A DNA stretch of 32,268 nucleotides from NCBI GenBank assembly GCA_013349665.1, contig DUZF01000006.1, forward strand, positions 1 to 32,268. Direction: 5' to 3'. A program made the translations under genes and the position numbers. This stretch comes from Rhodospirillaceae bacterium. GTDB lineage: Bacteria > Pseudomonadota > Alphaproteobacteria > Rhodospirillales > Magnetospirillaceae. A model generated the notes under the pieces. It did not search any database. It was given only the letters and a program-made list of their open reading frames with translations, and had not been told where the DNA came from. Positions 17,304 to 24,069 of this stretch are shown in pieces; position 1 is the first letter of the stretch, and every line of letters starts with the position of its first letter.

Positions 17304-17378
17304 GCCGAAATAGCTCAGCGGTAGAGCAACTGATTCGTAATCAGTAGGTCCGCGGTTCAAATCCGCGTTTCGGCACCA
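17304..17378 (+). tRNA. tRNA-Thr (anticodon CGT), 3' CCA encoded
   Basis: GCCGAAA acceptor pairs with TTTCGGC; anticodon arm ACTGA-TTCGTAA-TCAGT; T-arm CGCGGTTCAAATCCGCG; discriminator A + CCA. Confidence 0.95.
17334..17378. repeat. attL core (3' half of the intact tRNA-Thr)
   Basis: 45-bp direct repeat, identical to 24025-24069. Confidence 0.92.
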
Positions 17379-17676
17379 CCCTTCCCCGCGGAAACCCTAG
17401 GGTTTCCGCCTCGCACCCGGAGAAATCCGAAACAGTGCGAGGAAGACTGCGAGGCCAGGCCCCGCATGGCAGGGGCGGCCAGTGGCCGCCCCACCCGCCG
17501 AAGGCGGGCAGGGAAGTCCACGAGACAAGCCCCCGAAGGGGGCAAACGTATCCTCCCGCTGAGCCGCCGAAGGCGGCCGGACTGCCGACCGTCTTCGCCG
17601 GTCGACAGAGACAGTACGTTTAGAATAGAAGGAAACTCACCAGTATATAGGAATATCAATGGGTTGCAGGATAGCA

Positions 17677-17826
17677 ACCGGAAGATAGCTTCTTCCGGTG
17701 TAACCGGAAGTAGCTGACTTCCGGTACTGACATGAAATGGGGTCCTAATTATAGGAAAATCCGTTCCCATAAAGCGGTCGTATATCTTCCGGTAAAGCGG
17801 AAGAAAACTTCCGCTTGGACCGGAAG
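17677..17826. promoter_or_regulatory. Iteron/operator-like array of ACCGGAAG / CTTCCGGT motifs upstream of the RepL-like gene
   Basis: ACCGGAAG at 17677-17684, 17703-17710, 17819-17826; CTTCCGGT at 17692-17699, 17718-17725, 17786-17793; degenerate GCGGAAG 17797-17803 and CTTCCGC 17808-17814. Confidence 0.75.
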
Positions 17827-17836
17827 GGAGACAGCC

Positions 17837-18472
17837 ATGAGAGCGACGAAAGGAGACCAGGCAGGCCAGGCCATCATAACGGAGGCGGACTTCGCCGCAC
17901 GGGCGTTGGAGATGATGGCCGAAAACCGCGCCAAGACCGCGGCGTCTGACGAGGCAAGGAAAAACCACGGCTTCACGCAAGTCTACCAGCATGGCTGGAC
18001 CATGATGGAAAGCCTCGTCGAACGCTCACCAGCGGCATCGAAGCTCTACCTGCTGCTGGCTCGCAACATCGACGCCAAGTTCGGATGCGTGGTCGCCTCG
18101 CAAGAATGGCTCGCCGAACAGCTCGACATCACCTCGCGCCAGCTTCGGGTCCACATCGCGACGCTGGAACGGATGTCGGCCGTCGTCCGTTTCCGCGCAG
18201 GCGGCTCGACAGCCTACTGCCTCAACCCGCAACAAGTCTGGCGCGGAACGGACGACGGAAAGGACCTGGCTGCCTTCCACACCAACGTCATGCTGTCCAA
18301 GAACGAGAAGCGGGCCTTCTCGGTGAAAGTCCTCGGCGCGCTCGGCAAGAGGCCAAGCACAACCTCGGCCCACCAGCAGATGGAGAAGGCCGCTTCTAGG
18401 AAAGCGAGGAAGGCTAAGCAGGCGCCGGCGGAGCCGGCCATGGCCGACCCGAACCAGCTCTCCCTGCTGTAA
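17837..18472 (+). CDS. RepL-like plasmid replication initiator (winged-helix/HTH)
   Basis: ERSPAASKLYLLLARNIDAKFGCVVASQEWLAEQLDITSRQLRVHIATLERMSAVVRFRAGGSTAYCLNPQQVWRG resembles RepL-type/HTH initiators; start ATG 17837 preceded by GGGAG. Confidence 0.65.
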   Translation: MRATKGDQAGQAIITEADFAARALEMMAENRAKTAASDEARKNHGFTQVYQHGWTMMESLVERSPAASKLYLLLARNIDAKFGCVVASQEWLAEQLDITSRQLRVHIATLERMSAVVRFRAGGSTAYCLNPQQVWRGTDDGKDLAAFHTNVMLSKNEKRAFSVKVLGALGKRPSTTSAHQQMEKAASRKARKAKQAPAEPAMADPNQLSLL

Positions 18473-18503
18473 GCGACCAGCCCGACCTCTTAGAGGACAT
18501 TCC

Positions 18504-18746
18504 ATGACCGATCAGGAAGAGGATCTGCGGGCGGCCTGGCAAGGGCTAATCCACCTGCGTTGGTACGACGCCTGGCTGGCCTACGACATCGACGGCGAGG
18601 AGAAGGCCCACTATCGCTGCAGGAGGTGGAGGATCCATCCCTCCGACAGTGCCTACAATGGCCTCTCAGCCCACGACCGCCTCAAGATATACGGCGCCTT
18701 CCGCCGTGCCTGGGCTTCTCGACACCTCAAAGACGCATCAGCATGA
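18504..18746 (+). CDS. Hypothetical 80-aa protein
   Basis: MTDQEEDLRAAWQGLIHLRWYDAWLAYDIDGEEKAHYRCRRWRIHPSDSAYNGLSAHDRLKIYGAFRRAWASRHLKDASA. Confidence 0.6.
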   Translation: MTDQEEDLRAAWQGLIHLRWYDAWLAYDIDGEEKAHYRCRRWRIHPSDSAYNGLSAHDRLKIYGAFRRAWASRHLKDASA

Positions 18747-18804
18747 ACGACCAAGACGCCATCCAGTCCTGATCCGACAACCCGCCCTGAACGTAGGAAG
18801 GAAG

Positions 18805-18866
18805 GTTCTCAGAACGAGTTCTGAGAACTCACTTCGCAATAATCGGACCTGCGGTCCGATGTATTG
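18805..18866. promoter_or_regulatory. Two adjacent hairpins upstream of the relaxase gene (candidate oriT)
   Basis: GTTCTCAGAAC-ga-GTTCTGAGAAC (18805-18828) and CAATA/ATCGGACC-tgc-GGTCCGAT/g/TATTG (18837-18866). Confidence 0.55.
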
Positions 18867-22403: not shown

Positions 22404-22484
22404 GGCTGCCTCCTGCTCTGGTCCAAAGACATATGGACCTGGCCGGCAGCCCCTACCACATCCCCCGAGGCCCAGGCTGCCGAC

Positions 22485-23858
22485 CTACCTGCCCACCTTG
22501 GACAGCAGACGGAAGTGCCGCTCCGGCGACAGGTGCTTGTAGTGGCGGTCGATCATGGCGAGCGACGTCATGGTGTTGTCGGCCACGATCGCCGGCGGCA
22601 CCCCGTCGGAGAGCTGCGCCGAGATCGCGTAGTGCCGCAGGTCGTAGAGACTCCTGAACGAGCCGTCGGGCCGCGTGTCCAGCCCAAGCTGGCGCAGGAC
22701 CTTCTTGAAGCCACGGTTGAGCGCGGGCGGGTTGGTAGGCACCAGCCTGTCGCCCGGCTCCCTGGCGTGCGCCAGCAAGGCCGCGACGGCCGGCCAGCAC
22801 CATTCCTCCGGCACGACCTCCCACTCCCGCGGCTTCCTGCCCTTCTCGGTGCGCACCTTCAGCAGGTAGCCGCACTGGAGCGGCAGGCCCCGTGCCAGCC
22901 GATCCCGGACCCAGTCCGCCGTCTGGCCCTCCAGGTGCTCGCGGACATGCCAGCGGCGGACTCCGCAAAGGCTGCTGGGCCGCATCCCAGTGCCCGCCAG
23001 CACCTCGACGGCGTTGGCCAGCACGAACCTGCCCCACGCCGTCGCGTCCGTCGTCCAGGCGTCCTCGGGCGGATCGGACCGGCGCCTCGCCGCGACCTCC
23101 ATGGCCTCGGCCTTGGCGGCCTCGAAGCGGCCATGGGCGCAGGCGAACACCGCCTCCAGCTCCTCCGGCCCGATCCCGCCGCGGGCATTGGAGCCCGACG
23201 GCGGCCGGTTGGCGATGGCCGGCACCTCCGAGCGCAGCATCATGCCGGCGGCCACCGCATGGGCGAAGACGGCCCGCAAGGCCGCCATCTCCTGGTTGAA
23301 GGCCGTCGCCGAGACCTCCTGCTGGACGATCCCCGACGAGAGCCTGGGCAGGTAGTCGGCCAGGACCGGATGGCGCCGCCGGATCGACTCCGACGCCCGC
23401 CAACGGCGCTCGGCCTCCGCCCTGCGGTCGAGGGCCTTGCGCCTCAATGCCTCCAGAAGCGCCTGGCGTCGCTCCTGGCGCCACTTGGCATAGGCGCGCA
23501 CGTCGGAGTCCGTGATCTCGCTCACGGCCCTCTTGCCGCCTGCGCCGAAGAACGGGACCAGGTGGTCCCGCAGCGCCCGCCTGGCCTCCCTGTCCTTCGG
23601 ACGGTCGGCGGAGAGCTCGGCCGCGGCCCAGGAGGCCGCAGCCTCCGCGAAGGACGGCGGCCGCAGCCGCTTGCCGGCCTCATGCCGGCGCCTGGCCTCG
23701 GCCAGCATGCGCCTGGCCTCCCCAAGGGCCTCGGCCTGGTCGGCCTTGCCCGTGCTCGCCTTGACCTCCTCGCCGCCGACGTAGGCGTAGAGCTGCCAAC
23801 GCGACGAGTTCGGCCGGCGGTGCAGGTAGGCCCCCTGCTCCACCTCTATGCGCCTCAT
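22485..23858 (-). CDS. Tyrosine recombinase / phage-type integrase
   Basis: Core-binding region followed by catalytic motifs GTGMRPSSLCGV, LYDLRHYAIS and IDRHYKHL; adjacent to attR. Start placed at MRRIEVEQG (23858, GGAGG Shine-Dalgarno) rather than the 23957 start in the track. Confidence 0.9.
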   Translation of the reverse strand: MRRIEVEQGAYLHRRPNSSRWQLYAYVGGEEVKASTGKADQAEALGEARRMLAEARRRHEAGKRLRPPSFAEAAASWAAAELSADRPKDREARRALRDHLVPFFGAGGKRAVSEITDSDVRAYAKWRQERRQALLEALRRKALDRRAEAERRWRASESIRRRHPVLADYLPRLSSGIVQQEVSATAFNQEMAALRAVFAHAVAAGMMLRSEVPAIANRPPSGSNARGGIGPEELEAVFACAHGRFEAAKAEAMEVAARRRSDPPEDAWTTDATAWGRFVLANAVEVLAGTGMRPSSLCGVRRWHVREHLEGQTADWVRDRLARGLPLQCGYLLKVRTEKGRKPREWEVVPEEWCWPAVAALLAHAREPGDRLVPTNPPALNRGFKKVLRQLGLDTRPDGSFRSLYDLRHYAISAQLSDGVPPAIVADNTMTSLAMIDRHYKHLSPERHFRLLSKVGR

Positions 23859-23889
23859 GATGCCTCCAAGTCGTCCAAGGGCCCCGCAC

Positions 23890-23927
23890 TGCGAGGTAGA
23901 CTGCGAGGATGCGAGGCGAATGCGAGG
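23890..23927. promoter_or_regulatory. Candidate integrase arm-type sites, right end (4x TGCGAGG)
   Basis: TGCGAGG at 23890, 23902, 23910, 23921; matching pair at 17436 and 17448 plus inverted CCTCGCA at 17409 near attL. Confidence 0.7.
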
Positions 23928-23939
23928 AAGCGTCGCAGA

Positions 23940-23975
23940 AATCCGCCGTTTCGGCAAGGGCCGAAACGGCGGATT
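23940..23975. repeat. Perfect 16-bp stem hairpin resembling the tRNA-Thr 3' strand
   Basis: AATCCGCCGTTTCGGC-aagg-GCCGAAACGGCGGATT; tRNA has AATCCGCGTTTCGGC at 17360-17374. Confidence 0.85.
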
Positions 23976-24024
23976 CCCTTGCCAGGCGCCTCCGAAACCC
24001 GCGGCGGGCCTGGAGTCCGCCCGG

Positions 24025-24069
24025 TTCGTAATCAGTAGGTCCGCGGTTCAAATCCGCGTTTCGGCACCA
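24025..24069. repeat. attR core (partial tRNA-Thr 3' half)
   Basis: 45-bp exact copy of 17334-17378; no 5' half of a tRNA upstream. Confidence 0.92.

Follow-up and report, generated by a model that had tools for sequence, protein, structure and literature searches.

We analyzed a 32,268-nt stretch of the draft genome of a Rhodospirillaceae bacterium (GCA_013349665.1, contig DUZF01000006.1; hereafter the window) and found, between positions 17,334 and 24,069, an element that is very probably an integrative mobilizable element (IME), which would excise, replicate by a plasmid-type initiator and need a helper type IV secretion system (T4SS) for its transfer (Table 1). All three activities, excision, replication and transfer, are predictions from sequence. 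IMEs include a type with its own relaxase (iMOB; PMC11389934), and the element has the corresponding set of features: site-specific integration between attachment (att) sites, an integrase and a relaxase of its own, and no mating-pair apparatus. Here the relaxase is assigned through the Pfam family Mob_Pre, and the origin of transfer (oriT) is a candidate only. A first-pass annotation had proposed that a plasmid-type replication and mobilization module is joined to a tRNA-targeting tyrosine integrase. Empty sites in related genomes, domain searches and a free plasmid with the same type of Rep and a MobV uphold this view. The same annotation described the element as a hybrid of plasmid and integrative element; the combination of modules stands, but it does not form a separate class, as such elements already bear the name IME.

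Table 1. Features of the element and its borders, in window coordinates
Feature	Position	Strand	Evidence or remark
tRNA-Thr(CGT), intact	17304..17378	+	ARAGORN and Rfam; last 45 nt (17334-17378) are attL
Three putative TGCGAGG arm-type sites (inverted, direct, direct), beside attL	17409..17454	.	CCTCGCA-N20-TGCGAGG-N5-TGCGAGG
Origin-like array of (A)CCGGAAG motifs, both orientations	17677..17826	.	Directly upstream of rep
Rep, winged-helix replication initiator, 211 aa	17837..18472	+	PHROGs, plasmid Rep homology, predicted fold
Open reading frame (ORF), 80 aa	18504..18746	+	No family (Pfam, PHROGs, NCBIfam)
Candidate oriT, two hairpins, CACTTCG ... CGTTCGG	18805..18874	+	Upstream of mob
MobV relaxase, 435 aa, motifs RHDTR and HDGEAAPHLH	18918..20225	+	Pfam, NCBIfam, 4lvi alignment
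Single-stranded DNA-binding protein (SSB)-like OB-fold protein, 120 aa	20314..20676	+	Weak Pfam match, predicted fold
Pentapeptide-repeat protein 1 (PRP1)	20679..21185	+	Pfam
ORF, 62 aa	21182..21370	+	Duplication product, with ends similar to the beginning of the pentapeptide genes and the last part of ssb
Pentapeptide-repeat protein 2 (PRP2)	21373..21915	+	Pfam
ORFan, 135 aa	21996..22403	-	Just downstream of int, same strand; no family (Pfam, PHROGs, NCBIfam)
Tyrosine integrase, 457 aa	22485..23858	-	phrog_1 2.2e-17
Four putative TGCGAGG arm-type sites, beside attR	23890..23927	+	Heptamer repeats
attR, 45-nt copy of tRNA 3' part	24025..24069	+	Exact repeat
Native tRNA-Thr terminator, separated from the gene by the insertion	24073..24105	+	Directly 3' of the single-copy tRNA in relatives

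A 6.7-kb insertion separates a tRNA-Thr from its terminator

The element is bounded by 45-bp direct repeats (17334-17378 and 24025-24069) that are identical at 45 of 45 positions, as first described, and represent the 3' part of tRNA-Thr. They have no further copy in the genome (3.19 Mb, 353 contigs). The insertion measures 6,691 bp between the repeats and targets the 3' end of tRNA-Thr(CGT). ARAGORN detects one tRNA-Thr(CGT), and the right repeat consists of the 3' 45 nt only, with no second intact tRNA. A tRNA fragment at one end is what is expected of a tyrosine integrase that inserts at the 3' end of a tRNA gene and rebuilds the gene.

We then compared this locus with its counterparts in the family. 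With up to three mismatches allowed, the 45-mer is present as one copy each in 11 other family genomes, four of them without a mismatch, and in two copies only in the genome of the window. A hemY-like gene, found to the left of the window tRNA, also lies upstream in 7 of the 11 single-copy genomes. At three of the loci with one copy (L061, L063 and L065), nothing separates the tRNA from a AAGCCCCTGAAAGGTAACGCCTTT..GGGGGCTTT terminator, of the type that immediately adjoins attR in the window. Since the junction between tRNA and terminator is continuous in relatives and split here, this is a real insertion: judged by these alignments, the 6.7-kb stretch is inserted into tRNA-Thr(CGT) and leaves the tRNA intact.

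Both borders show further features. A perfect 22-bp palindrome, GCGGAAACCCTAGGGTTTCCGC, lies just inside attL (17388-17409) and is possibly a replacement terminator for the tRNA. To the right of attR (24070-32268), G+C content is ~0.53, versus 0.62-0.75 in the left flank, and matches to relatives on this side stop at the terminator after attR; this region may be another, older island.

The integrase is associated with putative arm-type sites at both ends

The integrase matches PHROGs family phrog_1 (2.2e-17), which supports its initial identification as a tyrosine integrase. When we compared it with the catalytic pattern of lambda Int (R...K...HxxR...H/W...Y), R293, K339, R408 and Y440 were present. 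A search of genome contigs returned two Magnetospirillum records (genomes G008 and G036) and one weak partial match; no homologue was found in viral contigs or among plasmids.

The heptamer TGCGAGG occurs 10 times in the window, and seven of these copies fall within ~140 bp inside the two att sites. The binomial value for this clustering, ~7e-13, is a loose one, as the 300-bp target was picked after the sites had been seen. Conserved spacing in an independent element provides a stronger argument. With one mismatch allowed, CCTCGCA-N20-TGCGAGG-N5-TGCGAGG occurs at three places in 55 family genomes, each at a tRNA 3' end: in the window, beside the tRNA-Thr att of an element in G008, where the spacing of the left group is identical, and beside a tRNA-Met in G012. 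We infer that the heptamers are arm-type sites of the integrase. A similar TGCGAGG cluster lies between an integrase and a tRNA-Thr 3' fragment in G022. In G012 (G012:C184:8002-8104; L071), tRNA-Met(CAT) is directly followed by five TGCGAGG copies, three with the conserved spacing and two more; no integrase homologue was found near these sites, and the cluster is possibly the scar of a lost element.

The replication module resembles that of very small plasmids

Rep matches phrog_270 (replication initiation, 1.7e-6), and tblastn finds its relatives in 541 plasmid records. The best of them include plasmids of 1.2-3 kb, and identity to the initiators of enterobacterial plasmids of 1.5-3 kb is ~37-43%. 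The plasmid NZ_CP117619 (1,589 bp) has no annotated gene besides the Rep homologue, and on pPROV046-NR2 (2,961 bp) the homologue is found together with MobV. The protein had been introduced as a RepL-like initiator: it is an initiator, but membership of RepL is ruled out by its Pfam match (PF05732, 0.074), which reaches 13 bits against a gathering threshold of 20.3. Its core is predicted to form a winged helix, and a structure search gave generic winged-helix matches (model without alignment, mean pLDDT 61). The start of rep is better placed at 17837 because the ATG at 17732 falls within the motif array. No relatives of Rep were found in viral contigs or in the genome-contig collection, and the element DNA has no plasmid match.

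The motif ACCGGAAG is present in six exact copies, in both orientations, within the 150 bp (17677-17826) upstream of rep, and seven copies are observed in the whole window versus 0.91 expected, which bears out the array described at first pass. A GGAA-core array also precedes rep in NZ_CP117619, in pPROV046-NR2 and at a second Rep-SSB locus of the same genome (G000:C30; L035:9317-15122), where Rep (60% identical) and SSB (79%) accompany a MobA/MobL (MobQ) relaxase; a tyrosine-integrase-like ORF lies near the end of that contig. We take the CCGGAAG array as a putative iteron-like origin. Together, a winged-helix Rep and an iteron-like array suggest theta replication, which the excised circle would probably use, and leave the rolling-circle side of the plasmid first proposed without support.

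The resemblance of Rep, array and MobV to free plasmids could also reflect a small mobilizable plasmid that entered the chromosome through a single chance recombination, without a dedicated cycle of integration and excision. This is very improbable, as the integrase of the element has putative arm sites beside attL as well as attR, and another tRNA-Thr gene is occupied in the same manner by a sister element whose integrase is related.

A MobV relaxase and a candidate oriT point to mobilization

The relaxase scores above the gathering threshold of Pfam Mob_Pre (PF01076, 1.7e-14), in agreement with its earlier assignment to MobV. Against NCBIfam NF041497 (7.4e-16), it reaches 58.8, below the equivalog cut-off of 100. 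Its profile aligns with MobM (4lvi) over the motif I histidine and the HxH motif (RHDTR and PHLH). No relatives of Mob were found in viral contigs.

The hairpins already noticed upstream of mob are real (z = -5.2). A second MobV is encoded in the same genome (G000:C25), with 48% identity over the whole alignment and 59% in the relaxase part, and the arrangement CACTTCG - hairpin - CGTTCGG is found upstream of both genes. Their flanks are conserved and the bulge is at the same place, while the stem letters differ wholly yet still pair. Because conserved flanks and a co-varying stem match the expectation for an oriT, we consider 18805-18874 a candidate oriT.

No T4SS, mating-pore or coupling-protein family was found above cut-off among the nine proteins of the element (Pfam and NCBIfam), consistent with the first-pass statement that it carries no conjugation machinery. 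Elsewhere in the genome, we found genes for a VirB4-family fragment and a VirD4-type coupling protein, so a helper is possibly at hand.

We also considered a phage satellite or small prophage remnant using a phage O-like initiator, an origin suggested by the matches of Rep to PHROG replication-initiation families and to a Vibrio phage replication protein. However, relatives of Rep are mostly small plasmids, with 541 plasmid versus 4 phage records. Apart from tail-fibre matches of the pentapeptide repeats, PHROGs assigns none of the nine proteins to a structural or packaging function, and a MobV relaxase with an oriT-like region speaks for conjugation. Phage origin is the least probable of the accounts considered here.

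The remaining genes include an SSB-like protein and duplicated pentapeptide-repeat genes

The rep, mob, ssb and pentapeptide genes run in one direction, and int and the 135-aa ORFan in the opposite one. Most of the first-pass gene assignments stand, and two further small ORFs (80 and 62 aa) belong to the element. For the SSB-like protein, the sequence match is weak (Pfam SSB 0.001, 19.5 of 26 bits, below cut-off), but the predicted fold lends it some support, with SSB 3eiv_B as the best match (E 1.3e-4; single-sequence model of middling confidence, mean pLDDT 63). It has no relatives in viral contigs and no plasmid match.

The two pentapeptide-repeat proteins are certain by Pfam, as first annotated. 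A local duplication appears to have given rise to the pentapeptide genes: a 129-bp stretch that runs from the last part of ssb into the first part of the PRP1 gene is repeated at 113 of 129 positions. The pentapeptide genes are the sole candidate cargo. A PADLOC search gave nothing convincing. A Qnr/MfpA quinolone-protection identity was rejected, with scores of at most 66 bits versus NCBIfam cut-offs of 240-500. PRP1 is mildly acidic (isoelectric point 4.75); DNA mimicry is not favoured as a general account of these genes, given the isoelectric point of 8.0 of PRP2.

A proposed cycle and the possibility of a relic

We propose that the integrase would bind the TGCGAGG arm sites and recombine attL with attR, producing a circle and restoring the empty tRNA locus. 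Rep would then bind the CCGGAAG array and replicate the circle, probably in theta mode, so that it is not lost at division. MobV would nick oriT at ~18805-18874, and the nicked strand would exit through the coupling protein and T4SS of a helper, while SSB may coat single-stranded DNA as the element is transferred or becomes established. In the recipient, the circle would finally reintegrate at tRNA-Thr.

Several observations count against such a cycle. The genome draft shows the integrated form only, and the potential helper genes are found on different contigs of the draft, one of them as a fragment. The C-terminal half of the initiator has no assigned function, and no excisionase was recognised among the element proteins (Pfam, PHROGs and NCBIfam). 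The integrase falls below the cut-off of the Pfam integrase model (0.057) and, in our comparison with lambda Int, has Tyr405 at the histidine of HxxR and Thr431 at the His/Trp position; with these non-canonical positions and the Pfam miss, its activity needs proof.

The replaced residues, the exclusively integrated form and the unrecognised excisionase would fit a relic, a once-mobile element fixed in the chromosome with its integrase or replication inactive. We consider this unlikely: every ORF is open, the two att copies still match at all positions, and the arm sites are intact, with the left group in the G008 spacing. Moreover, Tyr405 and Thr431 are common to all four aligned integrases, which makes a trait of the subfamily a better account of them than decay. 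An IME that is still mobile is the explanation we favor.

Related elements may exchange their replication modules

The sister element is found in Magnetospirillum sp. UT-4 (G008:C42), where 5.2 kb flanked by a 51-bp att at tRNA-Thr encode an AAA_25 ATPase, a MobV and an integrase 42% identical to that of the window. The two elements have in common the tRNA-Thr att, the layout of the arm sites, MobV and the gene order; they differ in that the AAA_25 (RepA-helicase-like) ATPase replaces Rep, and the sister has no SSB or pentapeptide genes. A search of 385 class genomes gave no further Rep or SSB of the same subfamily.

Other loci show parts of this plan. An 8.1-kb element at tRNA-Met (G020:C193; L018:3067-11195) has a 48-bp att, another tyrosine integrase, a winged-helix protein and a MobV; two further ORFs of no known function do not match PADLOC. 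A 5.75-kb island at tRNA-Thr (G057:C78; L038:6920-12746) combines a related integrase with an ORF that resembles DNA cytosine methyltransferases, with no MobV seen, and is suspected to be a restriction-modification island. The contig bearing the second MobV (G000:C25; L015:2702-16865) carries a tRNA-Ser, an integrase and an AAA_25 ATPase, and 17 bp of the tRNA 3' end recur at a distance of 14 kb. This is probably another element, of ~14 kb, and the repeat is plausible as its att. It also contains SprT-like and DUF5131-like ORFs (named by eye), and its possible cargo consists of TonB/ExbB/ExbD-like and TonB-receptor-like genes. In G022 (G022:C1:1033919-1072590), two copies of tRNA-Thr 3' sequence lie 38.6 kb from each other, and integrase homologues are found close to either end; these may be stacked elements. 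Judged by the relatives of the element, the host of the window is most likely related to Magnetospirillum (Rhodospirillales).

These elements may form an undescribed family of compact Rhodospirillales IMEs, a proposal that is about as likely as not. It would be defined by one integrase subfamily with the Tyr/Thr catalytic set, by the arm signature and by an exchangeable replication module (in the window, a gammaproteobacterial small-plasmid Rep with a GGAA origin; in the sister, an AAA_25 helicase), and module capture would let small plasmids give up a free existence for an integrated one. The arm signature provides a way to find more members, empty scars included, without relying on the poorly scoring integrase.

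Comparison with known systems

As a kind, the element is known (IME), and its Rhodospirillales variant is apparently undescribed in the open-licence papers searched. What is new is the arm-site signature, the candidate oriT with a co-varying hairpin, and the sister element with a different replication module. According to PMC5704250 and PMC11389934, IMEs such as NBU1, IMESag-rpsI and SGI1 likewise use a site-specific integrase, often at tRNA 3' ends, and IMEs carry their own relaxase without a mating apparatus, some of them with replication initiators, as here. The Rep type, the SSB-like gene and the pentapeptide genes are not among the IME modules in the available part of the 2017 review (PMC5704250). 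That review lists canonical IMEs from several phyla; its MobV IMEs come from Firmicutes, Bacteroidetes and Actinobacteria, and no canonical IME (with its own canonical relaxase and no coupling protein or mating-pair formation genes) had then been described in Proteobacteria, the phylum of the present host.

The IMEs of Mesorhizobium (PMC8627217) are also alphaproteobacterial, span 5.8-272 kb and mostly use tyrosine integrases, at tRNA sites that include tRNA-Thr. The delineated ones carry MOBF (one MOBQ), in contrast to MobV here, and MOBV is mentioned once in that paper, in a list of families.

Among plasmids of the same class, small replicons include the MOBV2 plasmids pMARC4, pMOS2 and pAES1 and the RepL plasmid pMOS6 of Paracoccus (PMC3832669), and Phaeobacter pP14_g is a small alphaproteobacterial plasmid grouped with MOBV2/RepL plasmids. 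Unlike the element, these plasmids are not integrative, and the window Rep misses the RepL threshold. NZ_CP117619 and pPROV046-NR2 share with the element a homologous Rep (~41-43% over 130 aa) and a GGAA-type array, as well as MobV in the second, but they are free gammaproteobacterial plasmids with no integrase annotated, and their Rep differs outside the core.

In a very compact form, the element makes the boundary between small mobilizable plasmids and integrative elements less sharp. According to the 2017 review (PMC5704250), the replication of excised IMEs was then unstudied; SGI1 was later shown to replicate in a plasmid-like manner when its helper plasmid is present (PMC7826253). With the same Rep-origin module in free 1.5-3-kb plasmids and in an integrative element, this replication becomes directly testable.

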